Positions 31,287 through 39,422 of a stretch of DNA of 64,000 bases are shown piece by piece. The stretch's first letter is position 1. Every line of letters starts with the position of its first letter. Below the pieces are notes generated by a model. That model did no database searches and was not told where the DNA came from. It was given only the letters and a program-made list of their open reading frames with translations. The stretch spans positions 186,001-250,000 of the forward strand of contig NZ_PPDK01000002.1 in NCBI RefSeq assembly GCF_003074135.1. Reading direction: 5' to 3'. A program made the translations under genes and the position numbers. Origin of the DNA: Euzebya tangerina. Lineage in GTDB: Bacteria; Actinomycetota; Nitriliruptoria; Euzebyales; Euzebyaceae.

Positions 31287-31858
31287 CAGCGCGGCACCTC
31301 CGCGGTCACCGCGAAGGCCGGCCCGTGGCCGGGGACGATGCGGTCGGCGATGTCCACCACCCGGGCTCGGTGCTCGTGGAGCAGATCGAGGTCGACGGCT
31401 CGCGGATCCGACTCCGACTCGGCTGTCCACCACAGGTGGGAGAACACGACGACCCCCTCCTCGGTGTCCACGACGGTCGAGATGTCCTCCATCGTGTGGC
31501 CAGGGGTGTGGAGCAGCGTGACACCGGGACAGACCTCGGCACCCTCGGCGGGACGAGCGGTCCACAGGTCCCCGGCGTAGGTCGCCCAGTGGTCGTGGAC
31601 CGTGGCGTGTCCGAACAGGCCCATCCAGCGGGTGTGGTCGGGGTGATGGTGGCTGAGGACGACATCGGTGACGTCAGCGGGGGCGTAGCCGGCGTCCGCG
31701 AGTGGGCCGAGGATCGAATCCGGCCCCGGGCACAGGCCGGGATCGACGACGACGACGTGGTCGCCAGAGACGATCAACGACACGGTCCCTCCCACGTGGT
31801 TCCCGCCCCTGCCCGGTCGGATGTATCCCTCGAACAACACCGAGACACAGGGCTTCAT
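31286..31858 (-). CDS. Metallo-beta-lactamase-fold hydrolase (MBLAC1-like)
   Basis: The 190 residues have the zinc motif SHHHPDHT near residue 70, a later PGHTMEDIS His, DTEEGVVVFSHLWW and a C-terminal PGHGPAF. This is a minimal MBL fold as found in MBLAC1-like or glyoxalase-II-like hydrolases. I chose ATG 31858 since the longer frame to 31951 adds non-conserved residues and overlaps the divergent YbjQ start. It precedes the glycosyltransferase with a 1-nt overlap. Substrate unknown. Confidence 0.83.
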   Translation of the reverse strand: MKPCVSVLFEGYIRPGRGGNHVGGTVSLIVSGDHVVVVDPGLCPGPDSILGPLADAGYAPADVTDVVLSHHHPDHTRWMGLFGHATVHDHWATYAGDLWTARPAEGAEVCPGVTLLHTPGHTMEDISTVVDTEEGVVVFSHLWWTAESESDPRAVDLDLLHEHRARVVDIADRIVPGHGPAFAVTAEVPR

Positions 31859-31925
31859 CGTGGTTCCGATCGCATCGTGGTTCCAGCTGATCTGGGTGCA
31901 GCCTAGGCTCCAGTATCCTGCCCGC

Positions 31926-32333
31926 ATGATCCTGGTGAACACCGAGACCATTCCTGGTCAGCAGATCGTGGCACTCCGTGGGTTGGTCCAGGGGAACACG
32001 ATCCGCGCGAAGAACATCGGCCGGGACATCGGCGCCGGGCTGAAGAACCTCGTGGGTGGTGAGCTCACGGCCTACACCGAGCTGATGACCGAAGCTCGGG
32101 ACGAAGCCGTCAGCCGCATGGTCGCGCAGGCCCAGCAGCTGGGGGCCAATGCCATCGTCAACGTGCGCTTCACCACCTCACAGGTCGCCGGCGGGGCCGC
32201 CGAGCTGTACGCCTACGGGACCGCGGTGACGGTGCAACCGACCGGGGGCGCCCCGCAGCAGGCCGACGCGCAGGGGCAGTTCGGGAGCACACCGCAGCAA
32301 GCCCACCCCCAGGGCTGGAACGCCTCCGCCTGA
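31926..32333 (+). CDS. YbjQ/UPF0145 (DUF74) family protein
   Basis: The first ~105 of 135 residues match YbjQ, a small pentameric protein often called a heavy-metal-binding domain: GLVQGNTIRAKNIGRDIGAGLKN, then VGGELTAYTELM, RDEAVSRMVAQAQQLGANAIVNVRF and YAYGTAVTV. The rest is a Gln/Pro/Gly-rich tail. ATG 31926 sits 68 nt from the divergent MBL start. Its stop overlaps the start of a second YbjQ gene by 1 nt. Metal binding has been suggested from structure in this family, but no clear metal ligand cluster can be seen. Confidence 0.88.
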   Translation: MILVNTETIPGQQIVALRGLVQGNTIRAKNIGRDIGAGLKNLVGGELTAYTELMTEARDEAVSRMVAQAQQLGANAIVNVRFTTSQVAGGAAELYAYGTAVTVQPTGGAPQQADAQGQFGSTPQQAHPQGWNASA

Positions 32334-32764
32334 TGGAGTTCGTCCTCTCGATCCTGATCCTCGCGCTCCTCGTCGGGATCGGCTTCCTCGTCGGCAGCTG
32401 GCGCGAGAGGCGTCACCTGGCCGAGCTCGCCCAACGAGAACAGGCCATGGCCCACGTGCTCGTCACCGACTTGCGGTCCTTGCCTCTCGGCCTCGACGCC
32501 TCCGCCGGCACGATGGTGATGGGTGAGGTCGTGATCGCCAGCGACTACTTCAAGCAGTTCGCTGCACAGCTGCGCAACCTCGTCGGAGGTGAGGTGACCA
32601 GCTTCCGCACGGTCATGGACCGGGGCCGCCGTGAGGCCCGGCAGCGGATGGTCGAGCAGGCCGACCGCATCGGCGCCCGGACGGTCATCAACGTCCGCTT
32701 CGAGACCTCGACGGTCGCCGCGCTCGGCACCGAGGTGCTGTGCTACGGGACGGCGGTCCGCTAG
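32333..32764 (+). CDS. Membrane-anchored YbjQ-like protein
   Basis: The 143 residues start with a single hydrophobic helix (EFVLSILILALLVGIGFLVG) followed by a YbjQ core: MGEVVIASDYFKQFAAQL, VGGEVTSFRTVMDRGRREARQRMVEQADRIGA, INVRFETSTVAALGTEVLCYGTA. It is a paralogue of the preceding gene and is translationally coupled to it (TGATG), which suggests a mixed soluble/membrane oligomer. The role is unknown. The following formate dehydrogenase gene is 72 nt downstream. Confidence 0.85.
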   Translation: MEFVLSILILALLVGIGFLVGSWRERRHLAELAQREQAMAHVLVTDLRSLPLGLDASAGTMVMGEVVIASDYFKQFAAQLRNLVGGEVTSFRTVMDRGRREARQRMVEQADRIGARTVINVRFETSTVAALGTEVLCYGTAVR

Positions 32765-32790
32765 GCGGCATAATCCCGTAGACTGGAACC

Positions 32791-32808
32791 GGGACCCGAA
32801 CGGGTCCC
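32791..32808 (+). other. Perfect inverted repeat upstream of the formate dehydrogenase gene
   Basis: GGGACCC (32791-32797) and GGGTCCC (32802-32808) form a 7-bp stem with a GAAC loop in the 72-nt spacer between the YbjQ pair and the formate dehydrogenase gene. No T-run follows. It may be a weak terminator for the YbjQ pair, an operator, or a leader element. Confidence 0.4.
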
Positions 32809-32836
32809 TCACGAACTCACCGCCGAGGTGTCCACG

Positions 32837-34738
32837 ATGCGCAACAAGACCCGCCTGACCACGCCACTGATCCGCCGGGATGGCGTCCTCGAACCGGCCT
32901 CATGGGAGGACGCGCTCGCCACAGCGGCCACCGGGCTCGGGGCGATCCGAGACACCCACGGTGGTCGGGCGCTCGGCATGTTCTCGTGCTCGAAGGCCAC
33001 CAACGAGACCAACTTCATGGCCCAGAAGTTCGCCCGGGTCGTGCTCGGGTCGAACAACATCGACAGCTGCAACCGAACTTGACACGCGCCTAGCGTCGTC
33101 GGTCTGGCGACAGCGTTCGGTGCCGGAGGCGGCACCAGTTCCTATGAGGAGGCGGAGCACGCCGACCTCATCATCCTGTGGGGCTCAAACGCCCGGAACG
33201 CGCACCCGATCTTCTTCCACCACGTCCTCAAGGGTGTCCACAACGGGGCCAAGCTGTACTGCGTCGACCCCCGTCGCAGCGAGTCCGCCCAGTGGGCCGA
33301 GGTCTGGCTGGGCCTGGACGTCGGCACCGACATCGCGCTCGCCAACGCCGTCGGCCGTGAGATCATCCAGGCCGGTCTTGCCGACCCCGAGTTCATCGGT
33401 CGGGCCACCAGCGGCTACGAGGCCTACGCGGCATCGGTCAAGCCCTACACCTTGGAGCACGCCAGCCGGATCACGGGCGTGCCCGCCGGGACCATCCAGG
33501 CCCTGGCCCACGACTACGCCACCGCGGGGCGTGCGCAGCTGTGCTGGACCCTCGGCATCACCGAGCACCACAACGCCACCGACAACGTCTTCGCGCTGAT
33601 CAACCTGGCGCTCCTGACCGGCCACGTCGGCCGGTACGGCTCCGGCCTGGTTCCCGTCCGCGGGCAGAACAACGTGCAGGGCGGCGGCGACATGGGTGCC
33701 TTGCCCAACAAGCTGCCCGGCTTCGCCGACCTCGCCGACGACGAGCGACGCGGCAAGTTCGAGGCCGAGTGGGGGACGGAGATCCCCGCCACGCCCGGCC
33801 GGCACCTCAGTCAGATGTTCGAGGACATCGAATCCGGAGCGATCAAGGGCCTGTACGTCATCGGCGAGAACCCCGCGCAGGCCGAGGCCGACGCCGGCCA
33901 CACCCGGGAGCTCCTCGACGCCGTCGACTTCCTGCTGGTCCAGGACATCATGCTGACCAAGACGGCTGAGATGGCCGACGTCGTGCTCCCCGCGGCGGCC
34001 GACTGGTGCGAGTCCAGCGGCACGGTCACCTCCAGCGAACGGCGGGTCCAGCTGACCCGCAAGGCTCTCGAACCACCGGGGGAGGCGCGGGCCGACCGCG
34101 ACATCATCGCCGACCTCGCCCGGGCCTTCGGTCACGACTGGGGCCGGCCGAGTGCCGAGGAGGTGTGGGACGAGCTGCGCAGCCTCTCGCCGATGCACGC
34201 CGGCATGAGCTACCGCCGACTGGAGGCCGAGGGTGGCCTGCAGTGGCCCTGCTACGACGAGGACCATCCCGGCGAGCTGTTCCTCCACGCCCGGCTGTGG
34301 GAGGACCCGATCCAAGGTGCGCGGGCGCCGTTCACCCCCGTCGAGTTCGCGCCGCCGGTCGATGAGCTGACGAGCGAGTTCCCGCTGCGCATGACGACCG
34401 GGCGGCATCTGGACAGCTACAACACCGGGGTGCAGACCGCCGGCTACGCCTCTCCGCTTCGCGAGTCCGGGCGGACCGGGGCGATGGTCGACCTCTCACC
34501 GGAGGACGCCGAGCGTCTGGGTCTTGCGACCGGCGACCTGGCCACCGTCACCAGCCGGCGTGGCTCGATCGAGGCGATGGTCAACGTCGCGCCAGGCCTT
34601 CGCGAGGGCCTGGTCTTCATGGCCATGCACTATCCCGACTCGACCGATGTCAACCAGCTGACGATCGAGGCGTGGGACCCTCAGAGCGGCACGGCCGAGT
34701 TCAAGGCCACGGCGGTCCGGGTGGAGCACGCCGGGTGA
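32837..34738 (+). CDS. fdhA: Formate dehydrogenase catalytic subunit, Mo/W-bis-MGD, selenocysteine-containing (UGA at 33080-33082)
   Basis: The frame is open for 633 codons except for one TGA at 33080. Residues before it read NNIDSCNRT and after it HAPSVVGLA, so the TGA sits exactly where formate dehydrogenases have Sec (or Cys) before the catalytic His; E. coli FdhF has Sec-His-Gly-Pro-Ser. A hairpin right after it matches a bacterial SECIS. The rest is molybdopterin oxidoreductase (HPIFFHHVLKGVHNGAKL, VVPVRGQNNVQGG-like region VPVRGQNNVQGGGDMG) and the C-terminal MGD-binding domain (LRMTTGRHLDSYNTG). Its own [4Fe-4S] N-domain is missing and lies on the third gene. Start ATG 32837 has GAGG 8 nt upstream. 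Confidence 0.9.
33080..33115 (+). promoter_or_regulatory. SECIS-like hairpin after the UGA selenocysteine codon
   Basis: The 18 nt after the TGA are followed by GGTCT in a hairpin loop; the upper stem is 33095-33100 (GTCGTC) with 33106-33111 (GGCGAC), including one G-U, and a looser lower stem can form between 33085-33087 and 33113-33115. From memory, the E. coli fdhF SECIS has the same GGUCU loop with the same 18-nt offset. In bacteria SelB binds this hairpin to decode UGA. SelA, SelB, SelC and SelD genes are not in the window. Confidence 0.78.
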
Positions 34739-34766
34739 CCAGCCTCTGCCCAACGGAGGGCGTCCG

Positions 34767-36623
34767 ATGGATCTGACCTTCTCCGACGCCGAGCCCACCG
34801 CCGCAGAGCGCGCCGTGATCGACGGACTGCTGGGTGCGCCCGACTCCGTCTGGACCGGTGCCGAGCAGCGCTCCGAGCAGGATCTCCGCGTTGCCCGGAC
34901 CGGGCGAAGCAGGGAGCGGCGGGACGAGCTGCTGCCGGCGTTCGACGCCGTGCAGTCCGCCATCGGGTGGATCAGCGAGGGTGCGCTGATGCACATCTGT
35001 CGGCAGCTCGGGGTACCTCCGGCAGAGGCCTACGGCGTGGCCACCTTCTACGAGCTCCTCAGCGTCACCGAGCAGCCGCCCCGGGTTCTGCACGTCTGCG
35101 ATGACGTCGGCTGTCGCGGCTTCGGCGGCACCGAGCTGATCGCGGGGGTCGAGGAGCACTTCGGGCCGGAGGGTGCCGTGGTGCAGACGTCCGACGGAGA
35201 GTCAGCGACCTGGCACCGCTCACCCTGCATCGGCCAGTGCGACCGGGCACCCGCCTGCTACGCCCAGCTGGCCGGCACCGACGACGCGGTCCTGGTGGAG
35301 ACCGGAACTGACGAGGCGGTGGCCGTGCTGACCGGCTCCTCGCCGGGCGGTGCGCCCGACGTCCTCCCGCCACAGGTCGAGGGCATGCGCCTCCTCCGCC
35401 GCGTCGGGGTGGTCGACCCGACCGACCTGGATGCCTACCGCGACGCCGGTGGGTACGCCGCCCTCCGCCGCGCCGTCGAACTCGGCCCTGATCGGGTGAT
35501 CGAGGAGGTCAAGGCATCCGGCCTGCGCGGCCGCGGTGGCGCCGCCTTCCCGGCACACGTGAAGTGGTCCGCTGTCGCCGCGCACGCCGAGGGGCCGCGC
35601 TACCTGATCTGCAACGCCGACGAGTCCGAACCCGGCACGTTCAAGGACCGCACGATCATGGAGGGGGACCCCTTCGCGCTGATCGAGGCCATGACCATCG
35701 CCGGCTTCGCCGTCGGTGCCGAGCAGGGGTACATCTACATCCGTGGCGAGTACCCCATCGCCACCGCCCGGCTCCGCGGCGCCATGCAGGCGGCCCGCAC
35801 CGCCGGCATGCTGGGCGAGGACGTGCTGGGCGAGGGGTTCAGCTTCGACATCGACCTCCGCCGCGGCCAGGGTGCCTACATCTGTGGCGAGGAGACGGCC
35901 CTGATGAACTCCATCGAGGGATATCGGGGCGAGCCGCGCAGCAAGCCACCGTTCCCCACCGATGTGGGCTTGTTCGGTCGCCCGACCGTGGTCAACAACG
36001 TCGAGACGTTGGTGAACGTCCTGCCGATTCTGGAGGAGGGCGGCGCCGCGTTCGCCCGGATCGGCACCGACGACTCGACCGGCACGCGGCTGTTCTGCCT
36101 CTCCGGTGCCGTCGACACACCCGGGGTGTACGAGGTGGAGTCGGGCATGATCCTGCGCGATCTGATCAGCCTGGCGGGTGGGGAGCCGGCCCAGGTCAGC
36201 GCCGTTCTCCTGGGCGGGGCCGCCGGGGCCTTCGTCGGGCCGGGGGACCTGGACCTGCCGCTGACGTTCGAGGACGCCAGGTCGGCCGGGCTGGGCCTGG
36301 GATCCGGTGTGGTCATGGTCTTCGGGCCGAGCGCCGACCTGGGTGATGCCACCACCCGGATAGCCCGGTTCTTCCGCGACGAGTCATGCGGTCAGTGCGT
36401 CCCCTGTCGCGTGGGAACGGTTCGGGTCGAGGAGGCGCTCGGTCGCTTCCTCGCCGCCGGCCCACGGGCGAACGGGGCCGGGACGCGCGAACGACGACTG
36501 ATCGAGGAGTTGGACCTGGTGATGAAGGACGCATCGATCTGCGGACTGGGCCACACCGCTGGCACCGCGATCCGCTCGGCGCTCGATCTCGGACTGCTGG
36601 GCAAGAGCGAGGTCCCGGCGTGA
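34767..36623 (+). CDS. fdhB: Formate dehydrogenase NAD(H) subunit: NuoE-NuoF fusion
   Basis: The 618 residues join two diaphorase parts. The NuoE-like N-terminus (~1-190) has HICRQLGVPPAEAYGVATFYELL and [2Fe-2S] cysteines in CDDVGC and CIGQCDRAPAC. The NuoF-like part has the FMN site ASGLRGRGGAAFP (near 250), CNADESEPGTFKDR, the NADH region and the [4Fe-4S] ligands ESCGQCVPCRVGT (near 545) plus a late CGLGH. It would pass electrons between formate-derived reductant and NAD+. ATG 34767 is 28 nt after fdhA; the stop overlaps the next gene by 4 nt (GTGA). Confidence 0.92.
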   Translation: MDLTFSDAEPTAAERAVIDGLLGAPDSVWTGAEQRSEQDLRVARTGRSRERRDELLPAFDAVQSAIGWISEGALMHICRQLGVPPAEAYGVATFYELLSVTEQPPRVLHVCDDVGCRGFGGTELIAGVEEHFGPEGAVVQTSDGESATWHRSPCIGQCDRAPACYAQLAGTDDAVLVETGTDEAVAVLTGSSPGGAPDVLPPQVEGMRLLRRVGVVDPTDLDAYRDAGGYAALRRAVELGPDRVIEEVKASGLRGRGGAAFPAHVKWSAVAAHAEGPRYLICNADESEPGTFKDRTIMEGDPFALIEAMTIAGFAVGAEQGYIYIRGEYPIATARLRGAMQAARTAGMLGEDVLGEGFSFDIDLRRGQGAYICGEETALMNSIEGYRGEPRSKPPFPTDVGLFGRPTVVNNVETLVNVLPILEEGGAAFARIGTDDSTGTRLFCLSGAVDTPGVYEVESGMILRDLISLAGGEPAQVSAVLLGGAAGAFVGPGDLDLPLTFEDARSAGLGLGSGVVMVFGPSADLGDATTRIARFFRDESCGQCVPCRVGTVRVEEALGRFLAAGPRANGAGTRERRLIEELDLVMKDASICGLGHTAGTAIRSALDLGLLGKSEVPA

Positions 36624-37579
36624 GCACGCATCCGGTCATCCCCCGACGTCCGCCCGCACCGCCTGAGCCGCCTCCGGTCAGCCTCACCATCGACGGCCAG
36701 CAGGTCGACGTGCCTGCCGGGACGACGCTGCTCGACGCCTGCCACCGCCAGCAGATCGACACACCGACGTTGTGCTACTCCGACGTGCTCGAGCCGGCTG
36801 CCGCCTGCCGGGTCTGTGTCGTCGAGGTGGAGGGATCCCGGACCTTGGTGCCGTCGTGTGCCAGGAAGGTCGAGGACGGCATGGTCGTCCAGACCAACTC
36901 CGAGCGCGTCCGCCACAGCCGGCGCATGGTCCTGGAGCTGCTCGGGTCGTCGGTGGACATGTCCTACGCCTCGTCGGAGATCATCGACTGGACGCAGCGC
37001 TATGAGGCCGACCCCGACCGCTACGGCGAGGCGGCCCGGACCGTCGAGCAGCCGGCGAAGATCGACAACGCGCTGTACATGCGGGACTACAGCCGCTGCA
37101 TCACCTGCTACAAGTGCGTCGACGCGTGCGGCGAGCAGGCACAGAACACCTTCGCCATCACGGTTGCCGGTCGGGGCTTCGAGGCCGGCGTGTCGACGGA
37201 GTACGACGTGGCACTCGGCGACTCCGCCTGTGTGTTCTGCGGCAACTGCATCGCCGTCTGCCCCACCGGAGCGATCATGTTCTCCTCCGAACATCAGTTG
37301 CGTGAGGAAGGGCTGTGGGACGAGGACGTGCAGGAGGTGACGCGGACGGTCTGCTCGTTCTGCGGGGTGGGCTGCAACCTCGAACTGCACGTGCAGGACA
37401 ACCGGATCGTCAAGGTCACCTCACCCCAGGACCACGAGGTCACCAGCGGCCACCTGTGCATCAAGGGCCGGTTTGGCTACGACTACGTCCAGAACTTGCC
37501 GGACCCGATGACGACGCCGATCGACGACGTGCTGGCCGCGGCCCGGGCGAGTGGCCGGGACGGCGGTCCTACTCGTTGA
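36620..37579 (+). CDS. Formate dehydrogenase iron-sulphur subunit (detached N-terminus of FdhA)
   Basis: The 319 residues correspond to the N-terminal third of fused FdhA proteins. In order: [2Fe-2S] plant-ferredoxin domain (CYSDVLEPAAACRVCVVEV ... PSCARK), two [4Fe-4S] ferredoxin motifs (CITCYKCVDAC, CVFCGNCIAVCP), and the N-terminal Fe4S4 domain of molybdopterin oxidoreductases (CSFCGVGCN ... GHLCIKGRFG). The His-Cys3 [4Fe-4S] motif usually found after the 2Fe-2S domain is missing: the stretch LELLGSSVDMSYASSE has no cysteine. It ends DPMTTPIDDV, just where the catalytic protein begins TRLTTPLIRRD. GTG 36620 overlaps the fdhB stop. The last 11 nt overlap the convergent copper gene. Confidence 0.88.
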   Translation: MSTHPVIPRRPPAPPEPPPVSLTIDGQQVDVPAGTTLLDACHRQQIDTPTLCYSDVLEPAAACRVCVVEVEGSRTLVPSCARKVEDGMVVQTNSERVRHSRRMVLELLGSSVDMSYASSEIIDWTQRYEADPDRYGEAARTVEQPAKIDNALYMRDYSRCITCYKCVDACGEQAQNTFAITVAGRGFEAGVSTEYDVALGDSACVFCGNCIAVCPTGAIMFSSEHQLREEGLWDEDVQEVTRTVCSFCGVGCNLELHVQDNRIVKVTSPQDHEVTSGHLCIKGRFGYDYVQNLPDPMTTPIDDVLAAARASGRDGGPTR

Positions 37580-39353
37580 CCGTGACCGAGATGGTCTCGG
37601 AGACGATGTCGAACCGTGTGAGCGCCACCTCCGTCGTGATCTCCCACACCCCCGGCTGGTTGAGTTCCGGTCCGGCCAGGAGGTAGTGGCCGGGGCCGGC
37701 GATCGTCGGCTCCCGCTCGATCGGCCCGATGTCCAGCTCGGGATGGGAGAGCAACAGGGTCACCGACTCGGCCACGTCGACCGGCCGACCGGTCTCACCC
37801 AGCAGGTAGATGTGGATCTCGTTCTGCCCGGCCACGTTGGGGTCGACGGTGAACGTCATCTGACCGATGCCGTCGAACTCGACCGTCTCGGAGTAGGCCC
37901 CGGTGACACCGGCAGCTTCCGCTGCGGGTTGGAGCGCCACCAGCGCGCCGGTCAGGGCCAGCACCGCGACGATGGCCCCGAGCTCGGTGAAGACGGTCAT
38001 GCCGAGGTGTGCCCACGCCCGGTCCCGCTCGGTCGCCTTGTCGGCCACCTCGTCCGATCCACCCGCGATGACCGGCTGCTTGCCGGCCCGTTGCCGGGCC
38101 CGTCTGGCGGTCAGTACGGGCACCAGCCGCCGGTTGTTGTATGCCCCGATGGCAACCAGGACTCCGACCAACGCGACCTTGGCGACCAGCACCAGTCCGT
38201 AGGAGGTGGAGAACAACGCCCGGGCCGCGCGGACCTCGACCCAGGACAGCGCCGCCCCCGCGCCGAGCACGGCGACGACGGAGACGGTGAACAGGGCAGA
38301 GAACCGCGCGATGGTCCGGCCGGCACCGACGGGGTCGTCCGCACGACGACGGATGCGGAGCACCACGAAGAGCAGCACCAGTCCGCCGGTCCACAGGGCG
38401 GTCGTGGCCAGGTGGATCGCTGCGGCCGACCACACCACGGCGGCCGGTTCGGTGGTCAGCGTGTGCCCCTCGAACAGGAACGAGCCGAGGGCAACACCTG
38501 CTCCGACGGCAGCCAGGCCACTGACGCCGACGGCGCCCTCATCGGTCCAGCGACGCAAGGCCATCCACACCAGCGCCCCGCCGACGGCCCGGGCGGCCGC
38601 CGACCAGCCGACGAAGCTGGTCAGCGTGGCTGACAGCGAGGCGGTGTCGGCCAGGGATCCCAAGCCATCCCCGCCGACCAGGATGGTCTGCCACACCACC
38701 GTCAGCACCGCGGTGACGACCACGGCGATCGCCCCGCGCCTGAGCCACGAGGTCAGGGCGACCAGCGCGTCGCGGGCAGTCCCGGAGAGCCACCAGGCCG
38801 CCGCCAGGACCCCGGCCACGACCAGCACCGCGACGTACCCGACCCACCGGGTGATCATGGCGGCGATGGCATAGGCCTGTTCGCTGTCGCCACCGAAGAC
38901 CTGCTCGAGCAGATCCTCGGCCCCGCTGGCCTCCTGACCGACGCTGAAGATCATGGCGCCGTCGATCGGGTGGCCGTCGGCCGACGTCACGCGGTAGGTG
39001 ACGGCGTAGGTGCCGTTCGCCAGATCACGATCCAGCTCGACACGAACGAGATCCGGGGCGTCCGCCGTCTGGAACGTCCCGCCCTGATCGACGCGCTCCC
39101 CGCCAGTTGCGAAGACCCGCAGACCGGAGGTGGTTGCCTCCACCGGCTCGTTGAACTCGAGGAACAGCTCCTCCGGGGCCACGTCGAGGACCTGCCCATC
39201 GGTGACCGACCCGCCCTCCAGCGAGGCGTGCGCCAGCGCCGGGGGCGCCAGCGCCAGCATCACCGCCAGGGTCAACGCCGCCAGACCGCCCAGACGCAGC
39301 AGGACACGCCGACCACGGTCGGGGCGGCGGCCTGCCAGCGAGACGCGAAGCAT
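37569..39353 (-). CDS. CopC-CopD fusion, copper resistance/uptake membrane protein
   Basis: The 594-residue protein has a signal-like start (LLRLGGLAALTLAVMLALAPPALAHA), a CopC beta-sandwich (HASLEGGSVTDGQ ... LFLEFNEPVEAT ... VTSADGHPIDGAMIFSVG), where the mature N-terminal His and the D-x-H-x-x-x-G pattern bind copper in the family, then about eight membrane helices of CopD, and a C-terminal extracytoplasmic beta domain (MTFTVDPNVAGQNEIHIYL) as in FixH/YtkA-type proteins. ATG 39353 puts the signal peptide first. It converges with the formate dehydrogenase operon. Confidence 0.9.
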   Translation of the reverse strand: MLRVSLAGRRPDRGRRVLLRLGGLAALTLAVMLALAPPALAHASLEGGSVTDGQVLDVAPEELFLEFNEPVEATTSGLRVFATGGERVDQGGTFQTADAPDLVRVELDRDLANGTYAVTYRVTSADGHPIDGAMIFSVGQEASGAEDLLEQVFGGDSEQAYAIAAMITRWVGYVAVLVVAGVLAAAWWLSGTARDALVALTSWLRRGAIAVVVTAVLTVVWQTILVGGDGLGSLADTASLSATLTSFVGWSAAARAVGGALVWMALRRWTDEGAVGVSGLAAVGAGVALGSFLFEGHTLTTEPAAVVWSAAAIHLATTALWTGGLVLLFVVLRIRRRADDPVGAGRTIARFSALFTVSVVAVLGAGAALSWVEVRAARALFSTSYGLVLVAKVALVGVLVAIGAYNNRRLVPVLTARRARQRAGKQPVIAGGSDEVADKATERDRAWAHLGMTVFTELGAIVAVLALTGALVALQPAAEAAGVTGAYSETVEFDGIGQMTFTVDPNVAGQNEIHIYLLGETGRPVDVAESVTLLLSHPELDIGPIEREPTIAGPGHYLLAGPELNQPGVWEITTEVALTRFDIVSETISVTVNE

Positions 39354-39422
39354 GAGGCCATGCTGGCACGGGATGGCGGCCCGGTCAGGTGGCACGCCCT
39401 TGGCCACGGGGGGCGCCCGACC

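Follow-up and report, generated by a model that had tools for sequence, protein, structure and literature searches.

Within the 64,000-nucleotide window of the Euzebya tangerina genome analysed here (the whole stretch of contig NZ_PPDK01000002.1 from 186,001 to 250,000), three genes of one operon very probably encode a cytoplasmic, Mo- or W-dependent selenocysteine (Sec) formate dehydrogenase (FDH) of the FdsABG type, with its alpha subunit made as two polypeptides. The product would be an NAD-linked, Sec-dependent FDH of three proteins. An in-frame TGA at 33080-33082 in the first gene is predicted, with very good support from sequence comparison, to be read as Sec. NAD-linked Sec-FDHs encoded next to NuoEF(G) are already known from Sulfobacillus and Planctomycetes; we found no published description of a split alpha subunit in the open-licence literature.

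Domain architecture of the three-gene operon

The first gene (32837..34738, + strand) encodes the catalytic Sec/Mo-bisPGD chain of 633 aa. This chain matches the curated FDH alpha model TIGR01591 over positions 50-672 (E=6.6e-191), contains PF00384 and PF01568, and aligns with residues 306-931 of FdsA (6tg9_A) among PDB sequences. Superposition of its AF2 model (pLDDT 88) gave TM scores of 0.93 against E. coli FdhH and 0.92 against FdsA. In a domain search the chain lacked PF04879 (Molybdop_Fe4S4), which was found in the product of the third gene instead. The first-pass annotation had called this an FDH gene, and as a Sec FDH the assignment stands; the gene is not, however, a complete alpha subunit, as the N-terminal [4Fe-4S] domain normally found on the same chain is encoded by the third gene of the operon.

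The second gene (34767..36623, + strand) encodes a fused NuoE-NuoF diaphorase subunit (PF01257, PF01512, PF10531, PF10589; NuoF model E=1.5e-125) with 2Fe-2S thioredoxin-like, FMN/NAD and 4Fe-4S domains. Cysteines C111/C116/C154/C158 and C541/C544/C547/C592 are present, and the fusion retains the NuoE and NuoF cluster ligand sets of an FdsABG-type subunit. The third gene (36620..37579, + strand), whose GTG start at 36620 overlaps the NuoEF stop, encodes the Fe-S chain (PF13510, Fer4 families, PF04879), comprising a 2Fe-2S domain, two 4Fe-4S domains and, at the C-terminus, the Mo-proximal Molybdop_Fe4S4 domain. It corresponds to FdsA residues ~21-305 (phmmer against 6tg9_A 21-305, E=6.6e-46); its AF2 model, with a pLDDT of 63, was too poor for structure search. 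Since the catalytic chain corresponds to FdsA residues ~306-931, the two chains together tile FdsA. The catalytic chain scores 635.8 bits against the TIGR01591 cut-off of 666.25 because the first 49 model positions lie on the other gene, which matches positions 1-58 with 60.4 bits. Neither chain alone passes, and both together cover the model. Standard annotation would miss the enzyme twice, once because gene calling stops at the UGA and again because neither chain reaches the curated FDH alpha cut-off.

We built a profile from eight relatives and collected 80 loci in named genome contigs, the best 80 of 557 confirmed matches; adding the window itself and seven relatives belonging to its order brings the total to 88 loci. 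Two of them (L054 and L060) share a contig, leaving about 87 independent loci, and one of this pair, deposited as a Nitriliruptorales MAG, is the top match among the named contigs. The query patterns of the scan exclude the Sec codon, and there was therefore no selection for TGA. A plasmid collection held only relatives below 60% identity. The gene order catalytic-NuoEF-FeS was found in 75 of the 88 loci (best 80 of 557 matches plus 8), and a further 12 are cut off by the edge of their contig. The last, L136, was considered as a locus without the FeS gene and rejected, as the start of that gene is seen before the sequence runs into an N gap. No in-frame CxxCxxxC motif was found upstream of the catalytic gene in any of the same 88 loci (best 80 of 557 matches plus 8). 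In one locus (L118) fdhD directly follows the FeS gene.

The residues U82-H83 and R275-G276-Q277 of the catalytic chain are conserved across the subfamily. A Mo-ligating Cys or Sec followed by His, together with RGQ or RGH, is the pattern of an FDH alpha subunit, and this motif class comprises the canonical FDHs (PMC8808070). The substrate is assigned from homology only, and the related FdsABG and HDCR enzymes can run toward CO2 reduction (PMC7171172; PDB 7qv7 match). There is accordingly a small chance that this split Sec molybdoenzyme has a physiological substrate other than formate, or works mainly in CO2 reduction with NADH; we consider it improbable given that the closest families are all FDHs and that both motifs fit the canonical enzymes. 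Less probable still is an arrangement in which the catalytic chain uses another Fe-S partner while the Fe-S chain of the operon serves a separate diaphorase. Separate chains could in principle swap partners, and the gap between the catalytic gene and NuoEF widens to 0.5-3 kb in five loci, but the two pieces are exactly complementary to FdsA, they co-occur and are arranged the same way in nearly all loci, and on its own the catalytic chain would be without its proximal cluster.

We favour an FdsABG-type FDH with a two-chain alpha subunit, and infer how the complex assembles, the path of its electrons, its substrate and metal, and the direction in which it works. SelB bound to the GGTCT hairpin would bring Sec-tRNA-Sec to the UGA at 33080, placing the Mo ligand U82 beside His83. 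Formate would then be oxidised at the Mo-bisPGD of the catalytic chain, and the electrons would first reach the [4Fe-4S] cluster in the separate Fe-S chain (C245, C248, C252, C280), on through two [4Fe-4S] and one [2Fe-2S] clusters of that chain to NuoEF, and finally through the NuoF-type [4Fe-4S] cluster and FMN to NAD+. The four cluster ligand sets of the Fe-S chain, 16 cysteines in all, are invariant in 28/28 homologues. The A4 motif, a His-Cys3 set around FdsA Cys121, is missing from the Fe-S chain and from all 28 homologues aligned. In FdsABG the A4 cluster is located near Cys121, where two FdsA protomers meet (PMC7171172). As A4 is the only ligand set missing, the on-path chain appears complete and the putative inter-protomer wire absent. 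Because the two chains divide FdsA into complementary parts, they allow a direct test of how subunits assemble around the Mo-proximal cluster.

The in-frame TGA and its predicted reading as selenocysteine

As the first-pass annotation described, the frame 32837-34738 is open for 633 codons but for one TGA at 33080-33082 (+ strand), between NNIDSCNRT and HAPSVVGL. Its placement of this codon at the catalytic Sec/Cys position was borne out by the relatives, as the same codon is TGA in 88/88 loci (the best 80 of 557 matches, the window and seven relatives from its order) and Cys in four relatives. A conserved UGA at the catalytic redox position that is replaced by Cys in some orthologues is characteristic of bacterial selenoproteins.

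The alternative that the TGA is an ordinary nonsense mutation in a decaying pseudogene is refuted by this conservation. Gene callers would indeed stop the ORF at the TGA, and the in-frame remainder is only a 428-aa ORF from an internal TTG; against this very improbable reading stand the presence of TGA in every one of the 88 loci (best 80 of 557 matches plus 8), spread over many phyla, purifying selection on both halves (dN/dS ~0.09-0.35 on either side of the TGA) and the sel genes of the genome. Homologues in which the position is part of a frameshifted pseudogene, named beforehand as one observation that would count against Sec, did not turn up. An organism-wide reassignment of UGA, for example to Trp or Gly, has even less to recommend it and is rejected: it would accommodate the one gene whose internal TGA is read through, but TGA is also the stop codon of the catalytic gene, of NuoEF, of the FeS gene and of several neighbours, the relatives substitute Cys rather than Trp or Gly, and tRNA-Sec and SelB are present.

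The SECIS-like hairpin following the TGA (33086..33123, + strand; GGTCT loop at 33101-33105, 18 nt after the TGA) folds at -21 kcal/mol, as proposed from the window alone. The likeness to E. coli also proved correct, with the K-12 fdhF sequence that we fetched carrying GGTCT 18 nt after its TGA. Such a G-U-containing loop just 3' of the UGA at E. coli-like spacing is a further feature of bacterial selenoprotein genes. As stand-alone evidence the hairpin had been overstated. Its shuffle z-score as a single sequence is -1.27, which is not significant, and GGTCT falls in the apical loop in 6.8% of synonymous-codon resampled versions; an Rfam search of 32500-35000 returned no SECIS-like family, the sole match being a chance hit to ybhL (E=3.2). 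Significance comes instead from comparative data. GGTCT occurs at +18 in 86/88 loci (best 80 of 557 matches plus 8), and the strongest synonymous-site constraint of the whole gene falls in windows covering codons 76-101 (starting at codons 76-87), where same-residue pairs at codons 87-91 agree at synonymous sites 95-100% of the time, the expectation being 35-40%. Pairwise covariation within the hairpin is weak because the hairpin is nearly invariant, and we therefore rely on synonymous constraint and on the Cys-containing relatives. The two exceptional loci (L093 and L116, both Rokubacteria) keep the TGA with GGGCT in place of GGTCT, which may represent a naturally occurring alternative form of the SECIS loop or the beginning of its loss.

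The Cys-containing relatives provide a natural control. In a sample of 396 genomes of the phylum, the same split operon occurs with TGC or TGT replacing TGA in four genomes, all from a single large-genome genus. All four lack GGTCT and have GGACT or GGGCT instead, although the peptide C-HAPSVAGL is retained in each; this loss in the face of a conserved peptide ties the loop to Sec decoding, not to protein sequence. tRNA-Sec is absent from three of these four genomes and present in 11/11 TGA genomes tested alongside them. The split family, having both Sec members and Cys members whose SECIS element is eroded, allows the exchange of Sec and Cys to be compared cleanly in nature.

The decoding machinery that an expressed Sec gene implies was found in full, with selA, selB, selC and selD all present in the E. 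tangerina assembly (4.78 Mb, 98% complete), as expected of a genome that makes selenoproteins. A lack of sel genes, the other observation named beforehand as counting against Sec, was thus not seen. The tRNA-Sec has the anticodon UCA, selB lies close to selA, the catalytic position of SelD is Cys (GCGCK), and fdhD is also present. The suggestion that selenoproteins are rare in Actinomycetota was too strong: tRNA-Sec scored above the Rfam cut-off in 22/30 genomes of the order and in 8/8 of those having the Sec FDH gene, per-genome counts that are not independent of relatedness. Two genomes (G036 and G138) have, beside a strong match, a second tRNA-Sec match barely above that cut-off (49-50 bits).

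Comparison with known formate dehydrogenases

Methylorubrum extorquens FDH1 contains tungsten with a Cys ligand and has, as here, a beta subunit that is a NuoE-NuoF type fusion. Its structures (PDB 7vw6, 8j83) show the same fold of the catalytic part, but its alpha subunit is a single chain. FdsABG of Rhodobacter capsulatus (PDB 6tg9; PMC7171172) combines NuoE-, NuoF- and NuoG-like modules with a Mo-bisPGD chain, and its on-path ligand sets A1, A2, A3, A5 and B6 are matched here, as is G7 in the NuoE part. In contrast, FdsA is one chain with Cys, whereas here alpha is cut at ~305/306, the catalytic gene comes first and the predicted ligand is Sec; NuoE and NuoF are fused, and the off-path A4 motif is absent (28 homologues). 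E. coli FdhF (FDH-H) resembles the catalytic chain in fold (TM 0.93), in having Sec followed by His and in the GGTCT placed 18 nt after the UGA, but it carries a [4Fe-4S] domain on its own chain, is part of formate hydrogenlyase and has no NuoEF partner.

Among bacterial selenoproteins, FDH alpha is the most widespread (PMC5029168), and a 2023 survey of the superfamily noted that UGA truncates FDH gene calls (PMC10100899). In Sulfobacillus, a cytoplasmic Sec FDH adjoins NuoEFG-like genes and coupling to NADH has been proposed; its description makes no reference to the Fe4S4 domain being split off (PMC4378227). A horizontally spread Sec fdhA-nuoEF operon has been reported from planctomycete P1 and Plesiocystis pacifica, where it was described as conserved only in those two genomes, with no mention of a split alpha subunit (PMC4807772). 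The Sec fdhA of these two organisms likely belongs to the same family as the split FDH of the window.

Phylogeny, distribution and neighbouring genes

A tree of 75 rows places every split row in a single clade (support 100), implying a single change between the split and fused states, and groups the four Cys rows in one subclade; the tree came from a quick search, has three long branches outside the split clade and is not securely rooted. The nearest fused relatives (50-52% identity) retain both TGA and GGTCT, and fused to split is therefore the more likely direction of change, the rooting being insufficient for proof. The named loci are assigned, as deposited, to about ten phyla (Actinomycetota, Acidobacteriota, Chloroflexota, Planctomycetota, Rokuibacteriota, Bacillota, Gemmatimonadota, Myxococcota, Spirochaetota and Thermomicrobiota), with nearly all of them being MAGs in which single assignments may be binning errors. 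Aquisphaera insulae JC669 (L127) is a cultured member. The phyla are interleaved in the tree, which suggests horizontal transfer. Uncultured Actinomycetota, Acidobacteriota and Chloroflexota commonly have the split family, and the extent to which these groups oxidise formate and use selenium is therefore probably under-counted.

We raise, as a tentative idea, that these loci represent a widespread, undescribed FDH clade in which the Mo/Sec chain and the Mo-proximal [4Fe-4S] domain became separate proteins once, spread between phyla and came with an altered assembly. If so, the split together with the loss of A4 would give a different mode of assembly, such as a complex that does not dimerise, or a Sec chain made independently according to selenium supply.

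Several neighbouring genes were recorded alongside the operon. In a Chloroflexota MAG, a PIN-domain gene with a weak Phd/YefM-like neighbour lies between the Sec gene and NuoEF, on the strand opposite to them (L122:8034-9142, - strand). Some members of the window's order (loci L053 and L056) have another FDH-like gene that also contains an in-frame TGA; it lies ~3.5-5 kb beyond the split catalytic gene, on the downstream side, and around the Sec codon the identity is 34% across ~145 residues. No such second gene was seen in the window's own genome. In the window itself, the FDH operon is directly preceded by two adjoining YbjQ-family genes (31821-32764, + strand), and a CopC-CopD fusion associated with copper resistance (37569-39407, - strand) is convergent with the operon and overlaps its last 11 bases.
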